Shown piece after piece: positions 15,482 through 50,754 of a stretch of DNA of 64,000 nucleotides. Position numbers and translations under genes: made by a program. The notes under the pieces were generated by a model. It was not told where the DNA came from, made no database searches, and saw only the letters and a program-made list of their open reading frames with translations. Source of the stretch: Malania oleifera (lineage: Eukaryota > Streptophyta > Magnoliopsida > Santalales > Ximeniaceae); assembly GCF_029873635.1 (NCBI RefSeq), contig NC_080423.1, positions 101,804,991 to 101,868,990 on the forward strand, read 5' to 3'. Each line of letters opens with the position of its first letter. The stretch's first letter is position 1.

Positions 15482-15915
15482 TCACGGTTCGAGTTGTGAA
15501 TCGGGTGAGGAGGAAATTGTGCCTCTTGTAAGCAGAGGATGTAAGGAAAGCTCCATCCCGGTTAAAGGAGCACGGATTTAGTGGAATCCTTGAGTGGGTT
15601 GCTCAAGGCGAGGACGTAAGCCGGATTGGCTGAACTTCGTAAAAACTGTGTTTGCCTTCTCTCTTCCTTTACTCTTTTTATTTTTCACACCTCATTTCAT
15701 TACTTATATTGCATGTGTGTATGTTTGAATAATCCCACACACACTTGATTATAAATTGGGTAAAACAAAATTCATTAAGATAATAATTTGATTCAGCTTC
15801 AAACCTGTGCAATTAATTTGTCAACTATAGAAATAGGGATTAAGTGGTAAATAATATTAAAGGCTTTTAAAAATACTCAATTCACCTCCCTCTTAGGATT
15901 ACACCTAAATTAACA
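15482..15915 (+). mobile_element. Copia-type LTR 3' fragment
   Basis: Text with KGAG-like leader phrases (GGTTAAAGGAGC, GTGGGTTGCTCAAGGCGAGG, GGATTGGCTGAAC), then an AT-rich tail ending in CACCTCCCTCTTAGGATTAC and TTAACA. It aligns by eye with the last 0.7 kb of the Sirevirus-like LTR at 38292-40529 (about 39850-40529). Only the 3' part is present. It ends 30-40 bases before the outer edge of the inverted duplication. Confidence 0.65.
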
Positions 15916-16029
15916 GGTACGGTGGAGGTGGCTACCGACTACAGCTCAACAATTCAATGAAATTGGCTGAGGTTGGTGGAGGTGGTTACCACTGCAGCTC
16001 AAGTTTAATATTCAACAATCAGAGCTTCT

Positions 16030-17600
16030 CTTTCTATTGTTCAGAAATTTGTTACTCATTAATTTAAGCTTAACTTGTAATCTTTACCTAACTGATTTTA
16101 AATTAGTTACAGATTTAACTTGAACTTGATTTTGAACATTCCACATTTGAATTAACACTTAATCTTTTTGAAATCAACTTCAGAATTTAGCAATCTACAA
16201 GCCTACTTTTAAATATTTTTTGAATAATCCAGTCTATTAATTCTTTGATTTTCTTTTCTAGGAAAAAAAGTAATCACATGTATGTTAAGACTAAATTCAA
16301 ACTAGTATTTATGTATACACGTCATATTAAATTTCTTGCCATAGTTAAAATTATGTATTAAGGGGAAAATATTTACAATGTCAGGGAAAATATCATCATA
16401 TTTATAAAATTTTGCATTTTCATCCCCATAATTAAACATATTTGTGTTTATCATCGTATTTATAAATTTGTTTGCATTTTCATCCTTAGAATTTTATATA
16501 TATACACATAAACTGTAGGTATCTTCCAGTGTAGCCAGCTAATTATTCTCCCCTATTTATAGCCCTTATGGTGGTCATCCACTTGAATGCAATTTGATTT
16601 CCTAATAAATCATACTCAAAATGTCTGATGAAATAGCTTTAGAAGCCACATTTACTATTAGGTAACTGTTGATCGAGAGTATTAACATTTTTTTATTGTT
16701 AGTTTTGATTTTACGCACCAAGTAAGAAGAGTAGGAGGGTTATTGATAATAAGAAAAAAAAAAGTGGTATTAATACTTATAGAAAGGATAAATTAGAAAT
16801 TCTATTGTGACTTTTGACCACAATGTCATTGATGAATAAAGTTCTACTATTTGATCAAAAAAACCAATTACTATGGTCAAATAAAATTACGCATTTAAGT
16901 CTCTTTTTCTTAAGGCCACAATTTTTTTTTTATGACAAATTGTATACCATGTATGTCAAAAATTGACATCACTCACAATTAATTACATGTGCATAGAGAG
17001 GAAAAAGTGTGATTTTGATTTTTTTTTTGTTTTTTTCTTGATAGATAGACAATTTCATTCCCATTCAATATGTGCCCATTCATATAGATTTGTATCATAT
17101 GTATATATATACATTTTAAGACAATAATGATTGGTGGTGTTTACAACTTTTAAAATGCATTTTTTAATAAATAAATTACTATATATGTATAACATCTACA
17201 AATTTTTTGGAATATATATATATATATATATATATTAATTTTTTTTATTAAAAAATGCATTTCAAAAGTTGTAAACACCACCAAACATTATTGTCTTAAA
17301 ATGTACATTTAGTCGGTCTACACTACAAAGGATTTGGCAAGACACATCCTGACTACTAATTTTGATATGATTTTTGTCATAGTGTGGGGAGGGGAGGGGA
17401 GGGGTTTATGGTTAGGGGTTGTGGTGTTGAGAACAGTGTGGCTAATTCAAAACAATTAGATTTGAAGCATTGTGTATAATTTATTACAAGGAAAACTTAA
17501 ATATTATTAATAAATGCTTCCAATTCAGCATAGTCTATTTATTTGTAGATTGGCCTTATTTTCATGTAGTGTTTTCTTTATAAGCATAAATCATAGAAAT
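16030..17600. other. Non-coding upstream region of the left PMEI copy
   Basis: AT-rich, no gene seen. It matches 33250-34990 in reverse, apart from the right-arm SINE and the local fold-back here. Parts also match, more weakly, the region upstream of the PMEI at 52673-53221 (53640-55050), so it belonged to the ancestral PMEI duplication unit. Confidence 0.6.
17111..17304. repeat. Small fold-back (about 59-base stems) present only in the left arm
   Basis: 17111-17170 (ACATTTTAAGACAATAATGA onward) is the near-perfect reverse complement of 17246-17304, with an AT-rich spacer of about 75 bases including a TA run. The matching place in the right arm (about 33764-33880) carries the sequence once only. 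So the left arm holds a second, local inverted duplication. Confidence 0.75.
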
Positions 17601-17667
17601 TTTCTTTCAGCCATGGAAAGCATAGAAAAAACACCAAAGTAAAGGGGTGTACATGCGAAATCCACTT

Positions 17668-17677
17668 CTATTTAAGG
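17668..17677 (+). promoter_or_regulatory. TATA-like box of the left PMEI copy
   Basis: CTATTTAAGG about 90 bases before the ATG at 17764. The same ten bases lie at 33151-33160 (minus) before the right-arm gene. Placement fits a plant core promoter; it is inferred from sequence only. Confidence 0.5.
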
Positions 17678-18081
17678 TTCAAAATCCCTCCTCACTCTCA
17701 TCCCATTCTCAAATTAAGAGAACACTTGCAAGAAGGGTTCCCTAAAGTTTTCCCATTCACAACATGGAAGAAACAAAAGCCCTAGCCATGAATCTTTGTT
17801 CTCTACCCCTCTTCATATTGTCCACCTTCCTCCTCTCCTTCTTCTTCATTAATGGTGCAAATGGGGATAGCAATCTCGTGATAAAGGTTTGCAGAGTCTC
17901 GGCCGAAAGGGACTCGAACCTCAACTATACTTTTTGTTTGGAGTCCTTCCAAGCAGTCCCAAACAGCCAAAATGCAACCCTAAGAGGGCTAGGGTTTATC
18001 TTTGTGAAGCTAACCCACTACAACACAGTTCGCGTTCATGCGCTTATCAAGGAACTCTTGAACCAGAATTCGGATAATAAG

Positions 18082-18451
18082 TGTAATAACTCGAAAAAAA
18101 AATAAATTATTAATTAATAGATTAAAATTATTAATCAATTAATTAGTTGAATATTATTAAATTAATGTTTGAAATAAACAAGTAAAAAGAAATAGTATGA
18201 AAAAAAATTAAAAAAAAAAAATAATAGTAAATTTAAATTAAATTAAATTAATTATTAATTAATTAAACCTTATTTAATTAAATAAATTATATGATGAGTA
18301 TATATTTATATAAGGGTAAGGTATATATATATGTAATATAAAATAATGTAAAGATAGAATTAAATGAATTGGATTTCAATTTGAAATCCAATTCAATCTG
18401 AAAGTTCACGCCTGATCTTCTCAGGCCTCTCTCCTGTGCCTGTTTCAATTT

Positions 18452-18517
<66 letters not shown>

Positions 18518-20776
18518 TCTCCTTCTATCTCCTCCTCCCTCTCCTCAATTTCATTAGCTTAGCAAGCGCCGATCGAAAAACGAAAAGTGCCATTGGGTTC
18601 CTAACTCCGCCACCGACATTTCTAATGGAGCAGATTTTTCATAGGAACGACTTAGGGACTGCTCTTGGGGAAAGGTAATTTTTCCTCAATTTCTCAATTT
18701 CTGGTTAAATCTGCTGTTGAATCGACGATCAGGCACCACCACCGGGTCCTAATCGTTGTTGTCGTCATTTTGGCGTAGGTGATTTTTCAATTAAAATTTT
18801 CTAGACCCTACTCCAACGCGAGAGTGAGATTTGAGAAATTTGACAATTTGGCTAAATTTAAGGGTATATTTATTTATTCAGGAATTATGGCCCTAGGAAA
18901 TATTTAAATAATATTTTATTCAGGAATAATTTATTGGAGTTAGAAAATTTTGATTCAGAGTCCGGGTGAGCGCCGCAGGTATTTTTTTGGAGTTCCTGTT
19001 GGTGTAATTCAAGAAACCAGGTAAGGGGAAAAATATATATTAAATCAGAATTTTTATGAATTTAATGAAAAAATAAATTGTGTTATATGTACGTATATAT
19101 GTTTCAGTATGGGTAAAATGTCAACTGTTTAAATTATATTTTTTTCGAGTTTAGGGTTGTTTATTAGATATGTATGTGTGAAAATGAACTGATGAAAGTG
19201 GAAAAATATTTTCAGAATATTTATGTAAGACATGAAAGGTATTTTTAGTATACAAACATTAAATGTTGGTTGACTTATTTTACAGGCAGTGTATGAATTT
19301 TACTATTAAATTGTGTGGCATGAGAATCTGTACAAATTATATGTTAAATGTACGAGATGCGGGCTAAATAAGTAAAGTAATGAAAATAAAATATGATAGG
19401 GACAATGTTGCCTGTGTATGTTAAATGCAACCATGTAAACAACTGAAATATGCTGGGTAAAACAGCTAAAAGTAGCTGGGTAAATGTGTAACAGCTGAAA
19501 GTGGCTGAGTAAATGTGTCACAGCTGAAAGTGGCTGGGTAAATATGTCACAGCTGAAAGTGGCTGGGTAAAAGTGTCATAATTGAAAGTGGCTGGGTAAA
19601 TATGTTACAACTGAAAGTGGTTGGGTAAATGTGTCACAGTTGAAAGTGACTGGATAAAATTGTCACAGCTGAAAGTGACTGGGTAAATGTGTCAGAGCTG
19701 AAAGTGGTTAGGTAAATGTGTCACAGCTAAAAGTGGTTGGGTAAATGTCTCACAGCTAAAAGTGGTTGGGTAAATGTCACAGCTGAAAGTGGTTGGGTAA
19801 ATGTGAAACAACTGAAAGTGGTTGGGTAAATGTATGATAACTGAAAAATGCTGGGTAAAACAGCTGAAAGATGCTGGGTATGAAATGAAATGAAATGAAA
19901 AGGAAAATGAATGCAATGAAAAGAAATGTGAAATGTGAATGATACAAATGAGAAAGAGTCACTTAAAGTGAAACACAAAGATATGTTAAATTATGAACAT
20001 GAAGAAATGTGTATGATTGAATAATGATAGAAAGAACGATGCATTATGATATTTGAAGTATTTATGTACGTAGAACATGTTACGATTGGGCGAGACATAC
20101 TCTTCGCCTGAGGGCTTGCTGAGTAAGGCGAGTGCACTAGTAGTTTCAGATGTGGCAGTAACTGTATAACGCACTAGGGAAGAGGGAACCTACTTGTATG
20201 GGCAGGTAGATTTCTCTATCCTTAGGGCCTTTTTCGGTAAGTTATTGTTGAACAGTATGAGTACGAGATCAATTTATCACTTGAGGGCTTACTGAGTAAG
20301 GTGAGTGCCATGGTATGCTTTAGTCACGACCTTTGGGTTACTTAAATATCAGAGCAGATGAGTGCTACTTGTATAGGCAGGTAATCACCCCTATCCTCAG
20401 CTAATCTCATGGGTTAAACATTTATATGTGTTTGTTTAGGATCAGAAAATGGTTTTAGGAAATTATGTTAGTGATTTGCAAATATTATAAAATAATATGT
20501 ATAATCTCATGATGGTCACATGCTGAGTTTAATATATTGTTTCTTCCCTTATTGAGACGTGTCTCACCCGAATATGAATTCATTTTTTTCATGATTTCTC
20601 AGGATCGAACTTTGAGAGCTCGAGATTTTATAACATTTTTGGACGATATGAAAAAAAAAGGTATATTTTTATGTTAATTCTGATATGTATATTTTATGTT
20701 TTATATCTTTATGTTTTAACTCAGTTATGAAAGGATAGTTGTGAAACATACTGGTATTAGTGGATAATGTTTTGGA

Positions 20777-20826
<50 letters not shown>

Positions 20827-21002
20827 AATACTGGTGGATGATTAATTTATTGTGGTTGGTAGTTAGAAATAGTAAATTCTGGTATTATGTTATATGGAGA
20901 TTATGGTTATGTTTTCCGCTGCGTATATGTTGATTATGGATCATCAGGGATTTTATCAGGTATAACGCACCGGACCCGGGTTTAAGGGTTCGGGGCGTTA
21001 CA
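18082..21002 (+). mobile_element. Solo LTR (Ty3-like, 2.9 kb) inside the left PMEI
   Basis: 2921 bases from TGTAATAACTCG to GGGGCGTTACA, with ATAAG at 18077-18081 and 21003-21007. Inside are a CT microsatellite (about 18455-18513), donor-like GGTAAGG near 19020, a 29-base minisatellite (19452-19880), the shared box CTTATTGAGACGTGTCTCAC near 20548-20567 and a TA run (about 20779-20823). No internal domains. Same family as 27931-30827 in the opposite arm. Confidence 0.9.
19452..19880. repeat. 29-base minisatellite in the LTR
   Basis: About 15 head-to-tail units of the form GCTGGGTAAATGTGTCACAG plus CTGAAAGTG, with small changes between units. Several overlapping minus-strand frames translate it into repeats such as HLPNHFQL; these are artefacts. 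Confidence 0.9.
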
Positions 21003-21220
21003 ATAAGAGTAGAGGCAAGTTGCAGGACTGCTTGAGTGTGTACTCTAAGACTGTGTATGACACAAGGGATGCCCTTCTTGCTGTTCGGTATGGAGATTAT
21101 CAATCTGCCAACGTGCATGTGAGTGCAGCAATGGATGCATCCAAGGTATGTGAAGACGAGTTTGCGATGAGTACAGAAGGTGCAAGACCTCCTTTGGGAA
21201 ATAAAAATAAGGAGATATTT

Positions 21221-21430
21221 GACCCCCAGGGAGTGGTTCAGGTGGTAGTACGGGCTGCGGGAGTGCCTCTCACGAGGTCAGGTGTTCAAACCCTCTCGGA
21301 TTCGTTTCCATCCCTGAATTCCTAAAATTTACCTCCCTTTGGAGTCGTGGGATCGGTTTCAAGGGGAGCAGGATTAGTCATGTGGACCGTAAAATAGACA
21401 CGTGGAAACCCGGTGCGTAATCTAAAAAAA
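21221..21430 (+). mobile_element. tRNA-type SINE, left arm
   Basis: 210 bases flanked by AATAAGGAGATATTT at 21206-21220 and 21431-21445. The head has A-box-like GTGGTTCAGGTGGTAG and B-box-like GGTGTTCAAACCC, as in tRNA-derived SINEs; the body ends in CACGTGGAAACCCGGTGCG and a short A-rich tail. It sits in the last coding part of the left PMEI. A sister copy is at 33469-33680. The family name is not known to me. Confidence 0.85.
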
Positions 21431-21493
21431 AATAAGGAGATATTTGGATTGAGTGCAGTGGCTTTGTTTATAATTAACTTGCTTGCAAAGTAA

Positions 21494-23187
21494 TGGCTAT
21501 TCATCCAAGTTTTATCTTTTTATATAAAATTCGCATGTTGATTTGATATATTTTATAAGTTCTTATAAAATGAGATATTCACTCTTAATTACTTAAAAAA
21601 TTGTGCACATTTTTTTTGACATTATATCAAGACTCATAAAACAAAATGAAGATATTTGATAGGACCAAGTTGAGACATTACAATGACCCTTAACCCCTAT
21701 CTACCCCGTGCCCCCATAATGAATGCCAAAAATTATAATGAATATACAATTATGATGCCCAATTTTATAATTAATGATATATGCAATTATGATACCAAGT
21801 GATATAATTAATTTCTATAAATAGGATTTAAAATTCAATAAATATAGAACGTTTTGATGAAATTTTGATTTCTTACAATAAATAAGCGTTGCAAGGACTT
21901 CTTATTTGTTTCTCAATTCGTTGAATGAATTGATGATACAAATAATTGTGAATTGATTCACCAAATCAACTATTTAAATTCTTTCCTATTAATGGTATAA
22001 TTATTAATTGTGATTCAATTATGATTTCTAACCTTGTATAGAGGCACACACCAAAAAAGTAAACTGAAAATGAATAATTCTTGCCTATTCAAACCTCAAA
22101 TGAATTTTTAGTCATTTGAAATTAAATTTCATCCAAATTTTTATAGATATAAATTATTTCAAAGGTCTCCATGCTCCCAAACACATCGCGGTATTTGGAA
22201 GAAAGCTAGAATTAAACATTCTATTAATAAAATTTTAACAAAAATCATATTTGTCAAGTAATTGACATTTTAGTGGCAACTCATTGTATGATTAAACATA
22301 TTCTTCTGTGTTTTTTGAAGGCCAAGTTTTGAATTTCATGCTTCTTATTCCATTTTTTTTTAAATATATATATTACATAAGAACTCTAGCCACTAACGAG
22401 CTCTTCGTATTCCTATTTTATTCTATAATTATGTGGGTTTCAAAACACGCAAAATTTAGTTTTTGAAAAAAAATATGTTTTGTGGATTTTAAAAAATCAA
22501 CATTCCAAATTATTTTTGTGTAGGGTAGAATTATAAAATGTGGTAACTTGTTTTTCTACTTATAATTATTTTGAAAATGCCAAACTGCTGGCCATATATA
22601 CATATGAATTTGATTCTCCGACTTAATAATAATTTAATTAAAAATTTACAATATTTTAAAAACATTTTTAGGAATAAAGCACATTTAAAAATAAATTTGT
22701 ACATCGTAAAAAATCCCTACAAATTCAAAATGACATTCATAACTCAAATAATAAAAATCAGGATTAAGTCTCAAAATTTAAGATAAAGTCTTAAATTCTA
22801 TTCATTAACAAGATAAAAGATAACCTTAGGAGCAACATACGTCAACTCTAGAACAGTGGGGAAAATATTATGTATATAGAACATTTGTGAAAATACAACT
22901 AACAAATTTAAGAAGACTGAAATCTAAAATTTGTATTAAAAAAAAAAAAACAAAATCAATTAAAAAAACAATTAATAAAAATTAAAGAGGAAAATAAAAT
23001 TTTTAAAAAAGAAGAAGGTAATAACAGTAATAAAATATGTTATCTTGGTATATTTGGATATTTAGTAGACTTTTGAATTGAATAAAAGTTGGTGATTAAA
23101 TTGTAAACGGATAAATTTCAGTGAGTTTTATGATCCGGTCCTTAAAAGAACCCTAATTCTAACTTTGGTGGTGTGAGGGAATGTGGG
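21494..23187. other. Non-coding, left arm, downstream of PMEI
   Basis: AT-rich. No gene seen. It mirrors 27321-27925 and 30833-31890 in the right arm, where a solo LTR separates the two parts. At about 22370-22420 a run of T is followed by ACATAAGAACTCTAGCCAC, which resembles the retroposon end at 55820-55900 and may be an old poly(A) element tail. Confidence 0.6.
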
Positions 23188-23621
23188 TGTTGCGGGGTAA
23201 AATTTGCTAGGATGCTCCTTCCACTTTCGTTGACCTGAAAGGGGAAGAAAAGAATGGCTTGGAGGACCCGGGGTGTACTCCGGGGGATACTCTGATGCCT
23301 AAGTAAGAGGAACGCTTTTAGAGATGCTGAATGCAACAGTATAATCGTGTTGAATGACTTACCTTGACCTTTTCTCCATATCCCTTCTTATAGGGGCTCG
23401 AGTTGACTGTAGGTTGGCTCGAATTTATTGCGCGGGGGCGTGAATCACTCCCCAGCCATAAGTGCGTGTACCTATTACTCAGCTATTAAAGCCGCTGGCG
23501 TGGATCTCTCCTCCTCTTTATTGGGTTGGAGCCGATCACTCGCCAGGATGTTAGACCCGGAGAAGGTGCGAGATAGGCGCGTTGACTTGCCTTCATTGGC
23601 TATATTATTTTGGGCGTATCA
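23188..23621 (-). mobile_element. Solo LTR (0.43 kb), left-arm copy
   Basis: TGTTGCGGGGTAAAATTT to GGGCGTATCA, with GTGGG at 23183-23187 and 23622-23626. It is present at the mirrored place in the right arm (26885-27320), so it was there before the inverted duplication. The family is that of the Ty3 element at 41.6-47.7 kb, whose LTR starts TGTTGCGGGATAAAAT at 42796. Strand is inferred from that element. Confidence 0.85.
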
Positions 23622-24259
23622 GTGGGATTGGAGTTTTAGCATCTAGCTAATGATGCATTGGTTATTTCAAATCAAGGAATCCATTAAAATGTTCTCTCCG
23701 ATTAACGTTAATCCTTCTCAACATGCCTAGCAGATATCCCACAATTAATCTTTCAAGGCATGGAAGTACTGCCCTATAGCAGAATAAACCCATTGAACCG
23801 AACAAAGAACAATCTCAGCTTTTACAAGTCTCATCTCCCCCTAAAAGCAGAAGAACAAAAAGAATTCTGCCCTAGTCTGATCGGGATATATATGTTTAGC
23901 CTCAGAATTTAGATCTCTACTGTTCTACATGCAGAGAACAGCAACTTGAAGTTTCTGTTCCATCTTCCTGCAAAGGATTTCTATACATGTTCACACAAGA
24001 AGATATAGATATCATCATAATGAGGCTTTGGCCACAAGATATACAAAAGGGGGCAAGTGAAGAAAAAGGAAAAATGATTTATTTTGGCTTAGCCAAAGAA
24101 TCTTGCATGATAGACAAGATCTATTTATCATTGATCAATAATGTACTGTTACTTCTGTTATTTTCATTCCCCTAACTGTGCTTCTATTTTCCACATTCTC
24201 AAATTTTGCACAATTGCCGAAAAATAGAAAAATAAATTAAAAAGACTTGCTAGAAGAAA
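23622..24259. other. Non-coding between solo LTR and CDC20-type pseudogene (left)
   Basis: No gene supported. The sequence mirrors 26247-26884. A 62-residue frame here (MFTQEDIDIIIMRLWPQD...) is conserved between the arms only because the DNA is; it has no recognisable domain. It may include the 3' untranslated part of the CDC20-type gene. Confidence 0.55.
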
Positions 24260-25089
24260 TTAATCCTCTTGTCGTCTCATAGGTGATGCTTTGAGAGACA
24301 AAAACCTATCCAGATCTGTTTCTCTTGAATTTTCAGTTAGAGGCGGTCCAAAAACCTCCCAGAAGCGAAGAGTTTCATCTGCGCCAGCTGAAACGACCGT
24401 CCCTCTGCTAAAAAAAGAAAAGAAAAATTGAAACGGGCAGCTTGTATTCTGAGTCTGCATTCTCAATCCAGTATCAAGCTCAGTTTCAGATGGAAAATTT
24501 TCAGACAAACCTGGGAAAGGTGGAGGATTCGGGATGAGTGATTCTGTATCTCTCCTATTTTATACAAGGAAGGGTACGTCTACAAGCATAACTGGTTTCC
24601 ATGCTGATCTGTGCTGTAACCATGGCCACTCAATAGCTCGCTGTGATCTATGTTCCACTCCAATCCACATATCTGCAGTAAAAAAACACCAAAATTACTA
24701 TAAGAAATGCAAACCAAATTGGCAAATACTTATATGAGTTTTGTCAACATTCTGAATAATATTGCTGATGAAAGAAGTGGCAATTTGATACCAATTTATG
24801 AAATATACAGTATTGCATTATCAGCTTAGTAGGTAAAAGCAGCAGCTGAACAACTAAAATTCGTAAAAGGTAAAGAACACCAACAGTTCAAGTTCTCATG
24901 AAAAGGAGGTGTTCAAGCATCAATGTAATGGATTACCAATTTTAGGTCACGACTGTTTGGAAAACAAGGAATACAGATGAGTAAACTTGCCTGTGCTTTT
25001 GTATCTATGCTTTTGATGCATGCCCCCTTCTTTATGCTCCACATCTTTATACACCCATCTGACAATCCACCTCCAGAGGCAAGTATATC
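24260..25089 (-). pseudogene. CDC20/fizzy-type WD40 gene, truncated inverted copy (left arm)
   Basis: Three exon-like blocks in mirror image of the right-arm copy: 24991-25089 (ILASGGGLSDGCIKMWSI), 24511-24672 (ICGLEWNIDHSELLSGHGYS) and about 24260-24408 (GTVVSAGADETLRFWEVFGP then FLSLKASPMR and a stop). CDC20-family proteins are WD40 activators of the anaphase-promoting complex; GADETLRFW is their usual last blade. The middle block has TAG where the family has tryptophan (LCL*TYPSL), and the same TAG is in the right-arm copy. Everything upstream of the third block is missing here. A pseudogene before and after duplication. Confidence 0.8.
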
Positions 25090-25171
25090 AGCTGTTGTGT
25101 TATTTTCTGCCCTAGCTATATATCAGATAATGCATGCAAAAAATTCTAAAATTCAATCATCTCCAACAGCT

Positions 25172-25245
25172 TGATGGACATTGATCGAGCGCGCAGCCTG
25201 TTGATGAGCAGGACAAAGGAAGCCTCGAACTCCAAATGCAATGTA
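25172..25245. other. Loop of the giant inverted duplication
   Basis: 74 single-copy bases between CTCCAACAGCT (ends 25171) and its reverse complement AGCTGTTGGAG (starts 25246). Most of it is an exon-like piece, 25174-25242, reading MDIDRARSLLMSRTKEASNS, followed by a GTAAGC donor whose last bases already belong to the right arm. Confidence 0.85.
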
Positions 25246-26246
25246 AGCTGTTGGAGATGATTGAATTTTAGAATTTTTTGCATGCATTATCTGATTGACA
25301 GCTAGGGCAGAAAATAACACAACAGCTTGTCTACGAGCACACAGGGGAGAGGTGTGCGGTTTGAAATGGTCAAACGGCAGCAATATAATGGCGAGCGGTA
25401 GCAATGACCAGTCGTGATATACTTGCCTCTGGAGGTGGATTGTCAGATGGGTGTATAAAGATGTGGAGCATAAAGAAGGGGGCATGCATCAAAAGCATAG
25501 ATACAAAAGCACAGGCAAGTTTACTCATCTGTATTCCTTGTTTTCCAAACAGTCGTGACCTAGAATTGGTAATCCATTACATTGATGCTTGAACACCTCC
25601 TTTTCATGGGAACTTGAACTGTTGGTGTTCTTTACCTTTTACGAATTTTAGTTGTTCAGCTGCTGCTTTTACCTACTAAGCTGATAATGCAATACTGTAT
25701 ATTTCATAAATTGGTATCAAATTGCCACTTCTTTCATCAGCAATATTATTCAGAATGTTGACAAAAGTCATATAAGTATTTGCCAATTTGGTTTGCATTT
25801 CTTATAGTAATTTTGGTGTTTTTTTTACTGCAGATATGTGGATTGGAGTGGAACATAGATCACAGCGAGCTATTGAGTGGCCATGGTTACAGCACAGATC
25901 AGCATGGAAACCAGTTATGCTTGTAGACGTATCCTTCCTTGTATAAAATAGGAGAGATACAGAATCACTCATCCCGAATCCTCCACCTTTCCCAGGTTTG
26001 TCTGAAAATTTTCCATTTGAAACTGAGCTTGATACTGGATTGAGAATGCAGACTCAGAATACAAGCTGCCCGTTTCAATTTTTCTTTTCTTTTTTTAGCA
26101 GAGGGACGGTCGTTTTAGCTGGCGCAGATGAAACTCTTCGCTTCTGGGAGGTTTTTGGACCGCCTCTAACTGAAAATTCAAGAGAAACAGATCTGGATAG
26201 GTTTTTGTCTCTCAAAGCATCACCTATGAGACAACAAGAGGATTAA
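25174..26246 (+). pseudogene. CDC20/fizzy-type WD40 pseudogene, fuller copy (loop and right arm)
   Basis: Exon-like blocks in order: 25174-25242 (MDIDRARSLLMSRTKEAS, compatible with the region after the DRFIPNRS motif of CDC20), 25350-25415 (EVCGLKWSNGSNIMASGSND, a middle WD blade), joined directly to 25416-25514 (ILASGGGLSDGCIKMWSI), then a GC-AG intron (GCAAGT at 25515, CAG at 25831-25833), 25834-25995 (ICGLEWNIDHSELLSGHGYS), an intron from GTTTGT, and about 26098-26246 (GTVVLAGADETLRFWEVFGP to a TAA). Compared with the roughly 450-residue family it lacks most of the N-terminal half and several blades. It has an in-frame TAG in place of tryptophan, and neither AG before the last block keeps phase. 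I infer a dead fragment; a related family member such as FZR/CCS52 is less likely by the C-terminal wording. Confidence 0.8.
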
Positions 26247-26884
26247 TTTCTTCTAGCAAGTCTTTTTAATTTATTTTTCTATTTTTCGGCAATTGTGCAA
26301 AATTTGAGAATGTGGAAAATAGAAGCACAGCTAGGGGAATGAAAATAACAGAAGTAACAGTACATTATTGATCAATGATAAATAGATCTTGTCTATCATG
26401 CAAGATTCTTTGGCTAAGCCAAAATAAATCATTTTTCCTTTTTCTTCACTTGCCCCCTTTTGTATATCTTGTGGCCAAAGCCTCATTATGATGATATTTA
26501 TATCTTCTTGTGTGAACATGTATAGAAATCCTTTGCAGGAAGATGGAACAGAAACTTCAAGTTGCTGTTCTCTGCATGTAGAACAGTAGAGATCTAAATT
26601 CTGAGGCTAAACATATATATCCCGATCAGACTGGGGCAGAATTCTTTTTGTTCTTCTGCTTTTAGGGGGAGATGAGACTTGTAAAAGCTGAGATTGTTCT
26701 TTGTTCGGTTCAATGGGTTTATTCTGCTATAGGGCAGTACTTCCATGCCTTGAAAGATTAATTGTGGGATATCTGCTAGGCATGTTAAGAAGGATTAACG
26801 TTAATCGGAGAGAACATTTTAATGGATTCCTTGATTTGAAATAACCAATGCATCATTAGCTAGATGCTAAAACTCCAATCCCAT

Positions 26885-27320
26885 TGATGCGCCCAAAATA
26901 ATATAGCCAATGAGGGCAAGTCAACGCGCCTATCTCGCACCTTCTCCGGGTCTAACATCCTGACGAGTGATCGGCTCCAACCCAATAAAGAGGAGGAGAG
27001 ATCCACGCCAGCGGCTTTAATAGCTGAGTAATAGGTGCACGCACTTATGGCTGGGGAGTGATTCACGCCCCCGCGCAATAAATTTGAGCCAACCTACGGT
27101 CAACTCGAAACCCTATAAGAAGGGATATGAAGAAAAGGCCAAGGTAAGTCATTCAACACGATTCTACTGTTGCATTCAGCCTCTCTAAAAGCGTTTCTCT
27201 TACTTAGGCATCAGAGTGATCCCCCGGAGTACACCTCGGGTCCTCCAAGCCATTCTTTTTCTTCCCCTTTCAGGTCAACGGAAGTCGAAAGAGCATCCCA
27301 GAAAATTTTACCCCGCAACA
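26885..27320 (+). mobile_element. Solo LTR (0.43 kb), right-arm copy
   Basis: Mirror of 23188-23621: TGATGCGCCC to CCCCGCAACA, with CCCAT at 26880-26884 and CCCAC at 27321-27325, one base apart. It predates the duplication. Between the copies only scattered base changes are visible. Confidence 0.85.
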
Positions 27321-27930
27321 CCCACATTCCCTCACACCACCAAAGTTAGAATTAGGGTTCTTTTAAGGACCGGATCATAAAACTCACTGAAATTTATCCT
27401 TTTATAATTTAATCACCAACTTTTATTCAATTCAAAAGTCTACTAAATATCCAAACATACCAAGATAACATATTTTATTACTGTTATTACCTTCTTCTTT
27501 TTTTAAAATTTTCTTTTCCTCTTTAATTTTTATTAATTTTTTTTATATTGATTTTGTAATTTTTTTTTATTTTTAATACAAATTTCAGATTTCAGTCTTC
27601 TTAAATTTGTTAGTTGTATTTTCACAAATGTTCTATATACATAATATTTTCCCCACTGTTCTAGAGTTGACGTATGTTGCTCCTAAGGTTATCTTTTATC
27701 TTGTTAATCAGTAGAATTTAAGAGTTTATCTTAAATTTTGAGACTTAATCCTGATTTTTATTATTTGAGTTATGAATGTCATTTTGAATTTGTAGGGATT
27801 TTTTACGATGTACAAATTTATTTTTAAATGTGCTTTATTCCTAAAAATGTTTTTAAAATATTGTAAATTTTTAATTAAATTATTATTGAGTCGGAGAATC
27901 AAATTCATATGTATATATGGCCAGCAGTTT

Positions 27931-30496
27931 TGTAACGCCCCGAACCCTTAAACCCGGGCCCGGTGCGTTATACTGGATAAAATCCTTGATAATTCATAAT
28001 TAACATAACATACGCAGCGGAAAACATAATCATAATCTCCATATAACACAATACCAGAGTTTACTAATTTCCATCTATAATCCAAAGTATCCATCCAACA
28101 CCTGCATTCCCATATATACATACATCTCCAAAAGCATTTCAGTATTTTCACAACCATCCTATTCTTAACAGGATTAAAACATAAAACTTAAAACATAAAT
28201 ATTTACATTCCCCCAAAGTGTTTTGAAAATATACCCATTCTCTTTAAGTCCCTCAAAATGCTAAATACCCATGAGCTCCCTAAGCTCGACCTCGAGGATG
28301 TCCTGAAAAAGAAATAATCATATTCGGGTGAGACACATCTCAGTAAGGGAAGAAATATACATATTAAAACAGCGTATGACCAACATGAGATAGATAGATA
28401 TCATTTTTATTTCATTTGTAAATCATCATATAATTTTGAAATCGTTTTCTGAACCTAAACAATCACATGCAAATATTTAACCCACGAGATTACCCAAGGA
28501 TAGGGGTGATTACCTGCCCATACAAGTAGCACCCCTCTGCTCTGATACTTAGGTAATCCTAAGGTCACAATTAAAACATATCAGAGCACTCACCTTACTC
28601 AATAAGCCTTCAAGTGGTAGATTAATCTCGTACTCACACAGTTCAACAATAGTTTACCGGCAAAGGCCCTAAGGATAGGGAATCCTACCAGCCATACAAG
28701 TAGGTTCCCTCTGCCCTAGTGTTTTATGCAACTACTGCCACATCTGAAGCTACTAGTGCACTCGCCTTACTCAGCAAGCCCTCAGGCGAAGAGTATGCCT
28801 CACCCAATCATAACATGTTCTATATACATACATACTTCTATTATCATAATATATCATTCTGTTCTGTCATTATACATCCATGCACATTCATTCCTATTCA
28901 TAACTTAACTTTGCATTTCGTTTCACTTTAAGTGACTTTTTTCCATTTACATCATTTGCCTTTATCATTTCATTTCATTGCTATTTCATCAGTCATTTCA
29001 TTGCATAACATTTCATTTCATTACTTCGTACTACAGTTGGTCTTTAGCCATCATCAGTTAGTCTACATAGAAACGTGCTAAATCTGCTAATATAGCTCCT
29101 TTTAGCTGTCATCAGTTAGTCTACACAGAAGTGTGCTAGATCTGCTAACAAGGCTCTCTTTCAGCTGTCTTACGTTTACATGGTTGCATTTAACAAACAC
29201 AGGCAACATTGTCCATATCATATTTTATTCTCATTGTTTTACTTACTTAGCCTGCATCTCATACATTTAACATATAATTTACACAGATTCTCATGCCACA
29301 CAATTTAGCAGTAAAATTCATACATATTTCTCATAAAATAAGCCAATCATATTTAACATTTACATGCTCAAAATACACTTCATTTCTTACATAAGTCTTT
29401 AGAAAATTCCTTTCACTTTCGTTTGTTTACTTTCACACATACATAACTATATCGACAATCCTAGGCTCAGAAAACATAAATTTCATGGCTGGCATTTTAA
29501 ACCCACATAAAAACATATATACATAAATAACACATGTTCGTTTTTTAATTCATGAAAAACTTAATTTAATATATAAATTTCTCCCTTACCTTGTTTCTTG
29601 AACTACGCCAACAGGGATCCTGAAAAGATGCCTGTGGCGTTCACCCGGATCCTAAAATTAAATTCCTAGTTCCAATAAATTATTTCTGAATAAAATATTA
29701 TTTTAATAATTTCTAGGCCCATAAATTCTAAATAATTAAATATATCCTTAAATATAACCAAATTACCAAAATTTTCAAATTAATTAATTCATTTCCCCAA
29801 AATACTACACATCTAGCCTTCCCTAAGCTCAACGCACTTCAAATTAACATTTAAACTAATATTTAACAGTCCCACTTAATTTTCTAAATTATGCCTACGG
29901 GGCCCAAAATTACACCCGCAGCGCTTACCCGAGCCCTGATTCAAAAACCCTAATTTCACTAAAATTATTTCTAAATAACATACTATTTAAATATTTTCTA
30001 GGATCATAATTTTAAATTTACAGATATACCTGCATATTTATCTAATTTGCCAAATTTCCCAAATCTCACTCTCGCTTTGGAGTAGGGTCTAGAAAATCTC
30101 AATTGAAAAATTATCTACGTCAAAATGACGACGACGACGACTAGGACCACGTGGTGGTACCCGTTCGCCGATTTAACAGTAGATTTAAAGTAAAATTGAG
30201 AAAATAGGGAAAAATTACCTTTTCCCAGGAGCAGTGCCTAAGTCATTCCCACGACCAATTTGCTCTAGTAGAAATGTCGATAGCGGAACTAGGAATCCAA
30301 CGGCACCTTTCGTTTCTCGATCCGCTGCAAAATTACCGTCGAGAAATTGAGAGAGAAAGAGAGGAGGAGATGAAGGTGGTTGGACAAGCTTAGAACAGAC
30401 AGGCGCAGGAAATGGATTTACAGAAGGAGGGGGGGGCGTGAATCTGAGAAGAATTGGATTTCACTTTGAAATCCAATTCTTCTCATTCCATCTTTA

Positions 30497-30550
<54 letters not shown>

Positions 30551-30743
30551 TTCTTACTTTACTCCTATATATACCCTATCCTTATAATTTACTTAATTAA
30601 TTCATGTAAATAACGTTTAATTAATTTATTAATTCAATTAAATAATATTCAATTTATAATTAATCTAATTTCATTTTATCTCATATACATTTTTATTATT
30701 ATTAATTTTTTATACTATTTCTTTTTATTTGTTCATTTATTAT

Positions 30744-30783
<40 letters not shown>

Positions 30784-30827
30784 TTTCTAATTATTTTAAT
30801 CTTTTTTTTTTTTTTTGGGTCTCTACA
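27931..30827 (-). mobile_element. Solo LTR (Ty3-like, 2.9 kb), right arm only
   Basis: 2897 bases, TGTAACGCCCCGAAC to GGTCTCTACA, flanked by AGTTT at 27926-27930 and 30828-30832. Its ends are the reverse complement of those of 18082-21002, so it is the same family. It carries a different repeat at the place of the 29-base minisatellite: two 64-base units with AGCTGTCATCAGTTAGTCTA at about 29040-29165. A TA run is at about 30492-30549 and an ATT run at about 30750-30783. The left arm has the empty site near 22578. Confidence 0.9.
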
Positions 30828-30832
30828 AGTTT

Positions 30833-31894
30833 GGTATTTTCAAAATAATTATAAGTAGAAAAACAAGTTACCACATTTTATAACTCTACCCTACAAAAAA
30901 ATAATTTGGAATGTTGATTTTTTAAAATCCACAAAACATATTTTTTTCAAAAACTAAATTTTGCGTGTTTTGAAACCCACATAATTATAGATTAAAATTG
31001 GAATACGAAGAGCTCGTCAGTGACTGGAGCTCTTATGTAATATATATATATTTAAAAAAAAACTGAATACAAAGCATGAAATTCAAAACTTTGCCTTAAA
31101 AAACACAGAAGAATATGTTTAATCATACAATGAGTTGCCACTAAAATGTCAATTACTTGACAAATATGATTTTTGTTAAAATTTTATTAATAGAATGTTT
31201 AATTCTAGCTTTCTTCCAAATACCGCGATGTGTTTGGGAGCATGGAGACCTTTGAAATAATTTATATCTATAAAAATTTGGATGAAATTTAATTTCAAAT
31301 GACTAAAAATTCATTTGAGGTTTGAATAGGCAAGAATTATTTATTTTCAGTTTACTTTTTTGGTGTGTGCTTCTATACAAGGTTAGAAATCATAATTGAA
31401 TCATAATTAATAATTATACCATTAATAGGAAAGAATTTAAATAGTTGATTTGGTGAATCAATTCACAATTATTTGTATCATCAATTCATTCAATGAATTG
31501 AGAAACAAATGAGAATCCTTGTAACGCTTATTTATTGTACGAAATCAAAATTTCATCCTAACGTTCCATATTTATTGAATTTTAAATCCTATTCATTGAA
31601 ATTAATTATATCACTTAGTATCATAATTGCATATATCATTAATTATAAAATTGGGCATTATAATTGTATATTCATTATAATTTTTGGCATTCAGTATGGG
31701 GGCACGGGATAGATAGGGGTTAAGGGTCATTGTAATGTCTCAACTTGGTCCTATCAAATATCTTCATTTTGTTTTATGGGTCTTGATATAATGTCAAAAA
31801 AAATGTGCACAATTTTTTAAGTAATTACGAGTGAATATCTCATTTTAGAAGAACTTATAAAATATATCAATTCAACATGCGAATTTTATACAAA
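30833..31894. other. Non-coding, right arm
   Basis: Mirror of about 21500-22570. No gene seen. Contains the retroposon-tail-like text at about 31010-31050 shared with the left arm. Confidence 0.55.
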
Positions 31895-32470
31895 AAGATA
31901 GAACTTATTATTATTATTATTATTGATGCATCAAAGAGCAATCATCTTTAAGGATGCAAGGCATGATACTAATAAAAAAAGTACAATGAACAAACTAAAA
32001 AAATATTTTTCAGAGAGAGAAGGATTTGAATTTTTGATTTAAACTTACCCAAAAAAAAATTAAGTCATGCAAAATAATAAAGAAAATACTATTAATCTCG
32101 AGCATTTTCTATTCATTTCTATTCAAATCTCCCAAGAAGTAGCTACAAACATAGCTAGTGCTCCAAATTAAACTTGCAGCCTGTCACCTTTCAAAATCAA
32201 AATGATGCCATTTTGAAGATAATCAATGAAGAAATACAAGAAATCTAATCAAGATTACAAAAGCCCGAAGATTAAAAATGATCAAATAGCTAACTAGTCG
32301 TAGTAGAGGAATCAAATATTCTCTCACAAAGATTAAGACTTATTTGATCGAAACCTTACTAACAATAAGTATATCATTATTTTGCTTATCTTAATTATTT
32401 AATAACAATAAAAGGAATGAGCAAATGACATCATATTCCATGCACATTCTCACTTGAAACGCTAGCCCAA
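31895..32470. other. Segment present only in the right arm, next to PMEI 3' end
   Basis: About 0.57 kb, starting in an ATT microsatellite (about 31907-31923), with no counterpart between 21505 and 21510 in the left arm. No gene or target duplication was recognised. Loss from the left arm is as likely as gain here. Confidence 0.6.
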
Positions 32471-32484
32471 AAATCAATTAGCCA

Positions 32485-33039
32485 TTACTTTGCAAGCATG
32501 TTAATTATGAACAAAGCCACTGCACTCAATCCAAATATCTCCTTATTGTTATTTCCCAAAGGAGGTCTTGCACCTTCTGTACTCATCGCAAACCCGTCTT
32601 CACATACCTTGGATGCATCCATTGCTGCACTCACATGCACGTTGGCAGATTGATAATCTCCAGACCGAAAAGCAAGAAAGGCATCCCTTGTGTCATATAC
32701 AGCCCCAGAGTAGACGCTCGAGCAGTCCTGCAACCTGCCTCTACTCTTATTATCCGAATTCTGGTTCAAGAGTTCCTTGATAAGCGCATGAACACGAACT
32801 GTGTTGTAGTGGGTTAGCTTCACAGAGATAAACCCTAGCCCTCTTAGGGTTGCATTTTGGCTATTTGGGACTGCTTGAAAGGACTCCAAACAGAAAGTAT
32901 AGTTGAGGTTCGGGTCCCTTTCGATCGAGACTCTGCAAACCTTTGTCACGAGATTGCTATCCCCATTTGCACCATTAATGAAGAAGAAGGAGAGGAGGAA
33001 GGTGGACAATATGAAGAGGGGTAAAGAACATGGATTCAT
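32485..33039 (-). CDS. Pectin-methylesterase/invertase inhibitor (PMEI domain, Pla a 1-like), right arm
   Basis: Secreted inhibitor of the plant PMEI-domain family. Members bind and block cell-wall pectin methylesterase or cell-wall/vacuolar invertase in a 1:1 complex; which target applies cannot be read from sequence, though resemblance to the pollen allergen Pla a 1 points to the invertase-inhibitor-like subgroup. 184 residues, single exon, within the family range. Signal peptide about 1-26 (FILSTFLLSFFFINGANG). Four-helix bundle with the four conserved cysteines at 35, 50, 106 and 146, and the family signature DYQSANVHVSAAMDASKVCE at about 128-147. N-glycosylation sites NYT (47) and NAT (62). 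The left copy starts upstream at MEETKALAM; here that first codon is ATA, so the start is the next methionine at 33039. Transcribed toward the palindrome centre. Confidence 0.9.
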   Translation of the reverse strand: MNPCSLPLFILSTFLLSFFFINGANGDSNLVTKVCRVSIERDPNLNYTFCLESFQAVPNSQNATLRGLGFISVKLTHYNTVRVHALIKELLNQNSDNKSRGRLQDCSSVYSGAVYDTRDAFLAFRSGDYQSANVHVSAAMDASKVCEDGFAMSTEGARPPLGNNNKEIFGLSAVALFIINMLAK

Positions 33040-33150
33040 GCCTAGGGCTTTTGTTTCTTCTATGTTGTGAATGGGAAAACTTTTAAGGAACCCTTTTTGC
33101 AAGTGTTCTCTTAATTCGAGAATGGGATGAGAGTGAGGAGGGATTTTGAA

Positions 33151-33160
33151 CCTTAAATAG
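33151..33160 (-). promoter_or_regulatory. TATA-like box of the right-arm PMEI
   Basis: Minus strand CTATTTAAGG, 112 bases before the ATG. Further upstream, near 33178-33205, the text ATACCCC..GCT.TGGTGTTTTTA is repeated before the gene at 52673-53221 (about 53314-53332), so it may be a retained promoter element. Confidence 0.5.
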
Positions 33161-33468
33161 AAGTGGTTTTTTCATGTATACCCCTTTGCTTTGGTGTTTT
33201 TACTATGCTTTCCATGGCAGAAAGAGAATTTCTATGTTTTTTGCTAATAAAGAAAACACTACATGAAAATAAGGCCAATCTACAAATAAATAGACTATGC
33301 TGAATTGGAAGCATTTATTAATAATATTTAAGTTTTCCTTGTAATAAATTATACACAACGCTTCAAATCTAATTGTTTTGAATTAGCCGCACTGTTCTCA
33401 ACACCACAACCCCTAAACATAAACCTCTCCCCTCTCCTCCCCACACTATGACAAAAATCATAAATCAT

Positions 33469-33680
33469 AACCCCCAAGGTGTGGTTCAGGTGATAGTGTG
33501 GGCTATGGGAGTGCCTCTCATGAGGTCAAGTGTTCAAACCCTCCTAGGTTCGTTTCCGCCCCTAAATTCCTGAAATTTACCTTCCTTTGAAGTTGTGGGG
33601 TCAGCTTCAAGGGGCGCGAGATTAGTCACGTGGACCGTAAAACGGACACGTGGAAACCCGGTGGGTAATCCAAAAAAACA
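33469..33680 (+). mobile_element. tRNA-type SINE, right arm
   Basis: About 212 bases, flanked by AAAAATCATAAATCAT at 33453-33468 and 33681-33696. Same family as 21221-21430: GTGGTTCAGGTGATAG and AGTGTTCAAACCC boxes, and an end in CACGTGGAAACCCGGTGGG with an A-rich tail. The mirrored site in the left arm (near 17370) is empty. Confidence 0.85.
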
Positions 33681-33699
33681 AAAAATCATAAATCATACC

Positions 33700-35050
33700 T
33701 CAATAGAAAAATGTAGTCAGGATGTGTCTTGCCAAATCCTTTTGTAGTGTTGACCGACTAAATGTACATTTTAAGACAATAATGATTGGTGGTGTTTACA
33801 ACTTTTGAAATACATTTTTTAATAAAAAAATTACTATATATGTATAACATCTACAAATTTTTTGGAATATATATATGCATATGAAACAAATCTATATGAA
33901 TGGGCACATATTGAATGGGAATGAAATTGTCTATCTATCAAGAAAAAAAAAAAACAAAAACAAAATCACACTTTTGTTTTTTCTTTATATGCACATGTTT
34001 ATAGCATGTAATTAATTGTGAGTGATGTCAATTTTTGACATATGTGGTATACAATTTGTCATAAAAAAAATTGTGGCCTTAAGAAAAAGAGACTTAAATG
34101 CATAATTTTATTTGACCATAGTAATTGGTTTTTTGATCAAATGGTAGAACTTTATTCATGGATGACATTGTGGTCAAAAGTCACAATAGAATTTCTAATT
34201 TATCCGTTCTACAAGTATTAATACCACTTTTTTTTTTTTTTCTTATTATCAATAACACTCCTACGCTTCTTACTTGGTGCATAAAATCAAAACTAGCAAT
34301 GAAAAAATGTTAATACTCTCGATCAACAGTTACCTAATAGTAAATGTGACTTCTAAAGCTATTTCCTCATACATTTTGAGTTTGATTTATTAGGAAATCA
34401 AATTGCATTTAAGTGGATGACCATCATAAGGACTGTAAATAGGGGAAAATAATTAGCTGGCTACGCTAGAAGATACCTGCAGTTTATGTATATATATAGA
34501 ATTCTAAGGATGAAAATGCAAACAAATTTATAAATACAATGATAAACACAAATATGTTGAATTATGAGTATGAAAATGAAAAATTTTATAAATATGATGA
34601 TATTTTCCCTAACATTGTAATTATTTTCCCCTTAATGTTGTATCTAACTTATGCAAGCTATGGCAAGAAATTTAATATGCAGCGTAACGTGTATACATAA
34701 ATACTAATTTGAATTTAGTCTTAACATACATGTGATTACTTTTTTACCTAGAAAAGAAAATCACAGAATTAATAGACTGAATTATTCAAAAAATATTTAA
34801 AAGTAGGCTTGTAAATTGCTAAATTTTGAAGTTGACTTCAAAAAGATTAAGAGTCAATTCAAATGTGGAATGTTCAAAATCAAGTTCAAGTTATATTTGT
34901 ACCTAATTTAAAATTAGTTAGGTAAAGATTACAAGTTAAGCTTAAATTAATGAGTAACAAATTTCTGAACAATAGAAAGAGAAGCTCTGATCGTTGAATA
35001 TTAAACTTGAGCTGCAGTGGTAACCACCTCCACCAACCCCAGCCTACTTC
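33700..35050. other. Non-coding upstream region of the right-arm PMEI
   Basis: No gene seen. Mirrors 15950-17360 and resembles, more loosely, 53670-55130 upstream of the PMEI at 53.2 kb (for example AGGATGTGTC.TGCCAA near 33719 and 53684, and CAAGAAATTTAA near 34662 and 55023). It marks the old tandem duplication unit. Confidence 0.6.
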
Positions 35051-35099
35051 TTTGAATTAATTTTCACCTACCATCCCATCCTTCAATATATGTATAGAG

Positions 35100-35100
<1 letters not shown>

Positions 35101-35133
<33 letters not shown>
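35101..35133. repeat. TG microsatellite
   Basis: Pure TG run of about 33 bases just outside the right edge of the inverted duplication. Confidence 0.9.
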
Positions 35134-35134
<1 letters not shown>

Positions 35135-35136
<2 letters not shown>

Positions 35137-36569
35137 GTATGTGGTGTAGAAGAGGAAGAATAACAAGTGGGAGAAATTCTGTATTTTGTGAGTTCTCTGT
35201 ATTTTTTTTAGATTATTATTAAAATTGAAGGGTGTTTTGTGTGCAATTGAGTATTTCCTCACTGAGTTCAATCACAACTAGTGATTGAGTGAGTCCCCTC
35301 CACCCATAAATGATATCACAGAGCCAAGGTTTGCTGAAATTTGCCAAATATCGAAGGGTGTTTTGTGTGCAATTGAGTATTTCCTCACTGAGTTCAATCA
35401 CAACCAGTGATTGAATGAGTCCCCTCCACCCAGAAATTTTTCCAGATTTGAATTTGCTTGAAATCAATTTTTGAGCATACCAGTGCGTGGAACACGTCGA
35501 GATGAGTCCATAGGTGAAAATGCATCTCAAACGGAGTCCGAATGCCTTCCCACGCGCTCACACGTGCCACCAGCTGTTACTGCGTCATTGAGACGCACTA
35601 CATGTGCCGGCATGAGTGTTGACTGGCAACGTCACGTGCCTAATGCGTTGATACATGCCTTTTTCTACCAAGTGACATGACCCGACCTAGAAACCTGCAA
35701 CCCGATTCCCGACCTAGCCCAGAAACCAGCAACCCGAACCAAAGACTCTCGAGCACAACCCGACCTAGAGACTGACCCGCGTCCAGATCCATGGATTATC
35801 ACGACACGCGGCTCGCCTAGAAGTCACCACATGTTCCAACAGTGCTGACTGGCGCTGTTAATCTGCGGTTAAGTGAAATCGGCCTAGCCAAATCGTTCTA
35901 GAACAATTTTTCAGCCGGTTCAGTGTTATTTAAATCGGTTCTTTGCTTCCCAAAATCGGTTCCTAAAGGTTTTTGACCTTTTGAACACACTGGTTGCATT
36001 AGATTTGCCAAAATCAATCCCCAACATTATATTTTGATATATATCAAACTTGATGGCGAACGATACTACAAAAATAGTCATTCTAAAGCTGACAAAGGGC
36101 AACTACGACAACTGGTGCATTAAAATGAGAGCCCAACTAGGTGCTCAGGATGTCATAGACATCATTGAAGATGGGTACGAAGAAGTCCCATCAAAAGAAG
36201 TTGAAGCATCTGCGTCTGATGTGAGTGCAAAGCCAAGTCCATAATCTACCAAGGCCTTGATAAGGCCATCTTCGAAATCATAGCTTCTGCCAAGACATCC
36301 CAAGAAGTCTGGAATACTCTCCACCGAACATACAAAGGAGCCAAAAAAAGTAAAGAGCATTCGCTTCCAAACTCTATGAGGTGAATATGAATCCTTGCAA
36401 ATGAAGTTGTCTGAGTCCATTGCCCAGTACTATACTTAGGTAATGGTTGTCTCGAACTAGTTGAGGAGAAATGGAGAGAATCTTATAGACATGATATGTG
36501 AGAAAATTTTGCGATCTTTGGATCCAAAATTTGACTACATAGCCGTTACACTAGAAGAAAAGAAAGATC
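35135..36569 (+). mobile_element. Fossil Ty1/copia 5' part: leader and gag remnant
   Basis: A gag-type reading begins at about 36050 (ILKLTKGNYDNWCIKMRAQL, GAQDVIDIIEDGYEEVPSKE) and continues in pieces to NLIDMICEKILRSLDPKFDY near 36480-36540. These match the DUF4219/UBN2 gag of plant copia elements. A primer-site-like ATATCACAGAGCCA lies near 35309-35322 and a long GC-richer leader follows. LTR limits are unclear. Broken, with several breaks, and cut at 36569 by the next element. Confidence 0.7.
35227..35440. repeat. Tandem duplication, period 126
   Basis: GAAGGGTGTTTTGTGTGCAA starts at 35227 and again at 35353. About 85 bases of each unit, to CCCCTCCACCC, are nearly identical. It lies in the untranslated leader of the copia remnant. 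Confidence 0.85.
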
Positions 36570-50374: not shown

Positions 50375-50754
50375 GGGTTTAGCTAGGGTTTTTGTTTTGG
50401 TAATCCGTTTCTTGTGTTTGGTGTTGAAAGAGATGAATTCGTGGGTATTGTAGTGGGTTTTTATTGTGTCTCCCCTGCCACGGGAATTCTCATCTTTGAG
50501 TCATCAGGTAATTAATTAAGTGGTTCATGTGAATAAGGTGAACTCTCTGGTGGCTTGGAAAGATATATTAAAGTAAAAAAAAAATTCCAATTAATTACTA
50601 TGACGGTTAGTTTTGAAGTCCTCTAATTGCATTTTCCAATGTTTGCGATATTGCACACGTTGTCTATTTTATTTTTATTTTGTTTTATGAATCATATTGC
50701 ACCTTTACCCATCCCATTCCATTGAGAAATTATACAGGAGACCTTCCCCTCCAT

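Follow-up and report, generated by a model that had tools for sequence, protein, structure and literature searches.

Layout and gene content of the palindrome

The stretch of DNA analyzed, hereafter the window, comprises 64,000 nucleotides of the Malania oleifera genome (C7:101804991-101868990, on a 112-Mb contig) and contains a large inverted duplication made up of PMEI and CDC20-type gene sequences. Positions are given as window bases, values below 1 or above 64000 lying on the same chromosome, contig C7 (contig position = 101804990 + number), and genome searches were run over the 1.494-Gb assembly of 510 contigs. Self-BLAST and a repeat search gave mirrored arms, the left arm (L; 15951..25172, minus strand) being the inverted copy of the right arm (R; 25245..35058, plus strand). 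The inverted duplication named in the original prediction thus exists in the assembly, with coordinates correct to within ten bases and a loop of 72 bases rather than 74. In self-BLAST, the mirrored blocks 15951-25090 and 25415-35058 are 97.9% identical in the inner part and 91.2% identical in the outermost part, and the repeat search placed an inner stem at 25083-25172 and 25245-25334 around the 72-base spacer. With two long homologous arms in opposite orientation and a short unique spacer, the structure is an interrupted palindrome, or inverted segmental duplication. The arms differ at 220 of 5970 compared sites (3.7%), far above chance.

The loop (25173..25244, plus strand) is part of the upstream exon of a CDC20-type gene located outside the window, and it matches its donor (C7:101902189-101902266, 96%) in the same orientation. 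Adjoining the center, R has 80 bases (25335..25414, plus strand) that are missing from L; they are present in the donor gene up to 25408, together with 105 further bases. The central 391 bases fold far more strongly than 100 shuffled sequences (z -22.65), as any inverted repeat would. Outside the arms, the flanking sequences on the two sides are unlike each other. The right arm end (35058) is contained in a dispersed repeat, V (34993..35600, plus strand), that extends outwards on the right side only, while another dispersed repeat ends 36 bases left of the left arm (15480..15915, plus strand). The latter is probably a long terminal repeat (LTR), several of its listed copies occurring in same-orientation pairs 12-17 kb apart, and given its proximity to the left arm end it may have overwritten the initial outer joint on this side, which would then be lost.

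The mirrored order of PMEI gene, solo LTR, and CDC20-type exons was as predicted, and rests on a PF04043 match, a mirrored LTR with target-site duplication (TSD), and CDC20-type WD40 exons. The right PMEI gene (32485..33051, minus strand; PF04043, 4.8e-20) is an open frame, in which the first methionine of L and of a PMEI copy outside the palindrome (P) is replaced by isoleucine, the next methionine of R following eight codons later. The left PMEI gene (17746..21500, plus strand) is disrupted by a 2.9-kb element and a SINE-like element (SINE, short interspersed nuclear element). Both genes are directed towards the palindrome center. Two further open-frame PMEI genes are found on the minus strand at 49811-50500 and 52673-53371; these are distant relatives of the arm genes, and the window thus holds a local PMEI cluster.

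The CDC20 parts were assigned to PF24807 through the peptide of the outside gene (C), and also by piecewise matches that include the arms. In R, exon fragments are located at 25325-25514, 25834-25995, and 26106-26231 (span 25325..26231, plus strand), and L carries their mirror at 23622..25090 (minus strand). One and the same TAG interrupts the third exon in both arms, the first five residues of the fourth exon cannot be aligned, and the second exon lacks 105 bases in R and, in L, those 105 together with the 80 bases adjoining the center. The common stop codon, the unalignable residues, and the missing exon bases mark these fragments as pseudogenes, and as judged from their sequence they are dead in both arms.

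The insertions within the arms are partly common and partly private. A solo LTR of 0.44 kb is present in both (26885..27320 in R, plus strand; mirror copy 23188..23622 in L, minus strand, by sequence comparison), flanked by the 5-bp target duplication CCCAC, of which the left-side copy in R is altered by one base; C has the empty site. It belongs to a dispersed family with at least 39 further copies elsewhere at 87-93% identity (39 of the 45 listed matches, with 40 of 3290 candidates scored). As predicted, other insertions are arm-specific, namely two TG...CA elements of 2.9 kb at separate sites and two SINE-like elements with TSDs of 16-17 bp. The 2.9-kb element of R (27931..30827, plus strand; TSD AGTTT) has empty sites in L and P, and that of L (18082..21002, minus strand; TSD ATAAG), within the left PMEI frame, has empty sites in R and P. 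Their separate sites, differing TSDs, and a divergence (K) of ~30% rule out that they are mirror copies of one insertion. On the basis of their ends and TSDs we call them solo-LTR-like. The family of the right element is abundant, with at least 40 listed matches at 94-100%, the query (its first 869 bases) included. The left element contains a 29-base minisatellite of ~14 copies (19462-19859), in place of which a 58-base unit is repeated just 2.2 times in the right element (29043-29169). The two shorter private insertions, which we take to be SINE-like, are located at 21222..21430 in L (plus strand, 16-bp TSD, within the left PMEI frame) and at 33470..33683 in R (plus strand, 17-bp TSD). By sequence comparison, 572 bases (31907..32478, plus strand) are present in R and P and missing from L. 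A short self-complementary element, presumably MITE-like (MITE, miniature inverted-repeat transposable element), is found in both arms (17104-17311 and 33759-33882). Taken together, the common and private insertions make up a consistent history, and the proposal of an old inverted duplication that survived several independent insertions is supported.

Relatives of both halves on the same contig

Each half of the arms has a single-copy relative outside the palindrome. The CDC20-type gene C (C7:101902189-101914856; window 97199-109866) lies 62-75 kb beyond the right arm, and its part resembling the arms spans 107495-109503. Searching the genome with the LTR-free CDC20 part (25500-26880; six of six candidates scored) returned R, L, C (93%), and weak matches on C9, the best of these (C9:38034159-38034652, 74% over 500 bases) being a more distant relative on another contig. 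A second CDC20-type locus with two adjoining stop-free matches is found ~170 kb upstream of the window (C7:101634798-101635714). Apart from itself, the loop has a single match, at 97199-97276 (96%) in the upstream exon of C. Loop and arm sequence thus come from the same gene in the same order, but in the present donor they are 10.2 kb apart. Further CDC20 matches within this gap, at 106987-107250 and 107321-107434, are both absent from the palindrome; a transposable element insertion alone is thereby ruled out as the source of the gap, and the loop exon and the arm must have been joined across a deletion or a jump. C does appear to contain a likely retrotransposon between the upstream exon and the WD40 exons, seen as a repeat pair (98550-99043 and 105056-105548, 89.7% alike) 6.5 kb apart. 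Just upstream of C, a direct-repeat pair of 342 bases, 100% identical and 5.1 kb apart (C7:101895522-101900999; window 90532-96009), is probably a very young LTR element.

The genome search with the PMEI part returned ten matches, comprising R, four pieces of L, P, three pieces of the two PMEI relatives in the window (64-73%), and one 46-base match on C12. P is located at about -2810..-521 (94%), or -3243..-521 with a second piece, 16 kb beyond the left arm. Its left flank (1261 bases) had no match elsewhere in the genome search. C and the arms are alike up to TTATTACCTT near 27497; beyond it, C goes on into a stretch common to P and C (X), and in the arms the PMEI flank follows. P starts at the same place, with its own left flank carrying TTACCTT, and at its other end (33116 in R) continues into TTATTACCTT followed by X. 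Besides C itself, the only matches to the first 108 bases of X are P (94%) and 39 bases on C12 (three of three candidates scored), which rules out that X is a mere dispersed repeat; after these bases a dispersed repeat follows in both C and P (40 of 2270 candidates scored). P and C diverge by 7.3 +/- 2.6% over 115 bases of the unique part and by 13.6% in the repeat part. If the left arm is ignored, the order on the chromosome is PMEI - X ... loop exon - CDC20 - PMEI, and that in C is exon - CDC20 - X. The block order is thus flipped, and the two joints fall within about 10 bases of each other in C. BLAST comparisons of P with C and across all 220 kb revealed no closure joint between -135 and 25173. 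As an origin of P, insertion of a PMEI unit into a second copy of C, followed by inversion between the PMEI copies, was also considered.

Divergence between the arms

As each half has a single-copy relative on this chromosome, the divergence between the arms could be normalized segment by segment. Long inverted repeats are unstable, and the ageing of those that survive is seldom visible; at this locus a single palindrome provides a measure of how far exchange between arms reaches from the center. The divergence is ~0.6-1% over most of the 1.6 kb at the center, 1.7-4.5% beyond, and 5-6% at the outer ends. The arms had been described as near-identical, which holds only adjoining the center, the outermost block being 91% identical in BLAST with a K of 5.9% without gaps for 33882-35058. 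With C and P, both on the same contig, as references and insertions left out of the distances, R and L differ by a K of 0.95% in the CDC20 intron (mean divergence of the arms from C 6.8%, ratio about 0.14) and of 0.62% in the CDC20 3' part (4.2%, about 0.15). Against the outside relative, the corresponding values are 1.7% (7.8%, about 0.22) in the segment following the LTR, 2.6% (7.0%, about 0.37) and 3.4% (4.6%, about 0.74) in the PMEI 3' flanks a and b, and 5.2% (5.0%, about 1.02) in the PMEI frame. The outer unique part, which has no outside copy, differs by 4.8 and 5.9%. The normalized divergence thus rises from ~0.15 at the center to 1.0 ~4 kb out.

At positions comparable between the arms and the outside copy, arm-specific differences (97 events) lie farther out than arm-common ones (130; 227 in total), a distribution reached in 0 of 20000 permutations, and Fisher tests gave 3e-7 (14/64 vs 75/66, with 8 three-way sites excluded) and 1e-8. 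The same trend is seen within the part covered by P alone (83 arm-specific and 66 arm-common events, 149 in total; 99 of 20000 permutations). In a change-point analysis, 64 of 3245 sites differ inside and 156 of 2725 outside (likelihood ratio 59; 0 of 1000 permutations on the same grid). As in a gene-converting palindrome, the arms are more alike than their age allows, in the inner part only; the identity above 99% over whole arms of the sex-chromosome type is not reached, 220 of 5970 sites being different. Exchange between the arms, favored near the hairpin center, would fit the gradient and is strongly supported; recombinational conversion and polymerase template switching are taken together here.

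A gradient could also arise from lower mutation or from selection on the inner part, with no conversion, and the CDC20 exons of gene C are probably constrained. This is extremely improbable, as the exons in the arms are dead, the intron and 3' segments are 4.0-6.9% diverged between arms and C yet only 0.6-1% between arms, and the trend holds inside the part unrelated to CDC20 (99 of 20000). With a mean divergence of the arms from C or P of 4.2-7.8% in the first six segments, the mutation rate does not explain the trend. It is likewise improbable, if a little less so, that the arms are maintained as a hairpin-RNA locus, in which read-through from either PMEI gene would yield long double-stranded RNA, and small RNAs directed at paralogues of CDC20 and PMEI. 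Such a locus would be in line with the inward direction of both PMEI genes and the strong folding of the central 391 bases (z -22.65), a property of any inverted repeat, and inverted duplication models for small-RNA genes are in print (PMC3237417). Both arms, however, are interrupted by insertions, and the outer arms are as diverged as the outside copies.

The gradient also bears on whether the palindrome is a head-to-head join of two haplotypes or a fold-back read. Both arm ends lie in or adjoin dispersed repeats, which are error-prone for assemblies. A fold-back read is expected to give arms near 0% divergence, and a haplotype join a roughly uniform value. The observed divergence is neither uniform nor near zero, but graded from less than 1% to about 6%. 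Moreover, the flanks differ on the two sides, the 220 kb around the locus are free of N and hold further single copies of both halves, and a haplotype join would require inverted orientation together with homology ending on both sides at once. Finally, the solo LTR and the stop codon are common to both arms, yet two 2.9-kb and two SINE-like elements with TSDs are private. An assembly artefact is therefore very improbable.

The R-P and R-C divergences are both 5.0% and the outer L-R divergence is 5-6%, pointing to a similar age for the joints and the palindrome. At a fast substitution rate of about 7e-9, this age would be about 4 million years. At the slower Populus rate of 2.5e-9 per site per year (PMC7023750), a divergence of 5.5% would correspond to about 11 million years.

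Proposed origin and comparison with known systems

The structure is probably an interrupted inverted segmental duplication that arose by a single repair event of the fold-back type in locally rearranged DNA and was later homogenized from arm to arm, most strongly at the center. We infer that the first event attached a fragment of gene C to the 3' flanking sequence of a PMEI gene, the joint lying near 27487-27497, and that the reciprocal-looking PMEI-X joint at P was probably made in the same episode. The two CDC20 pieces found within the 10.2-kb gap in C, and missing from the palindrome, would have been dropped; the solo LTR (26885-27320) and the nonsense codon, present in both arms, would predate the duplication or have been spread by later conversion. 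A broken end with about 75 bases of the upstream exon may then have folded onto itself and served as the primer for copying the inverted arm, with the exon piece remaining as the loop. The private 2.9-kb and SINE-like element of each arm, and the loss from L of 572 bases and of bases near the center, would belong to the time thereafter, when exchange between the arms, for which the support is strong, would have held most of the inner 1.6 kb at 0.6-1% while the divergence farther out rose to 5-6%.

Repair by fold-back accounts for a loop that is single-copy and collinear with one arm, and for the short exact overlap of about 2 bases at each of its joints (TA and TT). A close rival is a breakage-fusion type of event, in which sister-chromatid ends were joined in inverted orientation without a fold-back hairpin, the 72 bases between them being a templated filler copied from the upstream CDC20 exon. 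The loop would suit such a filler in being a short patch whose source is 10.2 kb from the inner end of the arm in present C, with 2-base overlaps on both sides. We nevertheless regard this route as doubtful, as a filler could come from anywhere and in either orientation, whereas the patch comes from the same gene, on the upstream side and collinear, as fold-back with an internal deletion predicts.

Several observations weigh against fold-back followed by homogenization. The gradient is uneven, as the common solo LTR is 4.5% diverged between the arms amid neighbors of 0.6% and 1.7%, perhaps because a transposable element decays faster. The innermost 108 comparable sites include 3 differences (2.8%), all within 4 bases (25296-25299). 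In one PMEI window the R-L divergence of 3.4% exceeds that of R-P (2.75%) and L-P (2.4%), so P may have exchanged too or split off at nearly the same time. The outside relative changes from C in the inner to P in the outer segments, although the trend holds within the P part alone, and the age and order of events would depend on paralogues. The inverted microhomology at the spacer joint amounts to 2 exact bases (AGCTT vs AGTTT, 4/5), within chance for one case, and the short overlap could be chance. Finally, crossovers between the arms can flip the loop, and its orientation is no proof of the original arm.

More tentatively, one germline episode may have made the palindrome, P, and the joints, with circular or template-switching copying of CDC20 into the PMEI locus ending in a fold-back, followed by a center-focused conversion field fading ~4 kb out. 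If true, the locus would offer a natural gauge of repair guided by a hairpin in a plant chromosome. The structure itself is of an ordinary type with an unusually readable history, a natural record of palindrome formation, decay, and partial self-repair that also shows the small-scale assembly of a new gene neighborhood from sources tens of kilobases apart. The center-to-edge gradient is its most useful feature; the original prediction had missed this graded homogenization, as well as the source of the loop and the donor loci beyond the window.

Human fold-back inverted duplications likewise have a single-copy spacer between inverted arms, with short overlaps at the spacer joints to which the 2-base overlaps here may correspond; inverted microhomology of 2-8 bases is reported for 13 sequenced joints (Hermetz et al. 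2014, PMC3907307). The cases described there accompany terminal deletions, translocations, or ring chromosomes; the present palindrome is old, has 9-10 kb per arm, and is interstitial, about 10 Mb from the contig end, with no terminal deletion or translocation beyond the inverted copy. Its loop and arm are also non-adjacent in the present donor gene. In yeast with normal MRE11 and SAE2, foldback inversion loops are reported with a median of 36 nt and can be far longer (PMC7467729), so a loop of 72 bases is ordinary. The flipped block order seen here when the left arm is ignored, with both joints at nearly one donor point, resembles that of segmental duplications formed through circular intermediates (PMC7450558); the present locus differs in showing no closure joint, in its small pieces, and in a 2.7-kb PMEI unit duplicated around the insert.

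Arms made alike by polymerase template switching between inverted repeats are known from yeast, where the reported repeats are short and the changes multinucleotide, in contrast to the kilobase tracts seen here (PMC8604942); template switching is by analogy a possible contributor to the homogenization. Intergenic inverted repeats of nematodes, located between paralogous genes and kept by conversion, are also nearly identical in their inner arms and have short spacers, one of them of 126 bp (PMC1803023). These are reported as structurally conserved between species, whereas the present palindrome is known from one assembly. The P6 palindrome of the human Y likewise has gene-converting inverted arms (PMC3723533), but in contrast to sex-chromosome palindromes the present arms are about 99% identical only in most of the inner 1.6 kb. 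No center-to-edge gradient in a plant palindrome was found in the accessible portions of the open literature on palindromes with gene conversion. Partial conversion in plant palindromes has already been published for the willow W chromosome, where inverted arms with indels likewise undergo arm-to-arm conversion that is confined to parts of the arms (PMC7023750).

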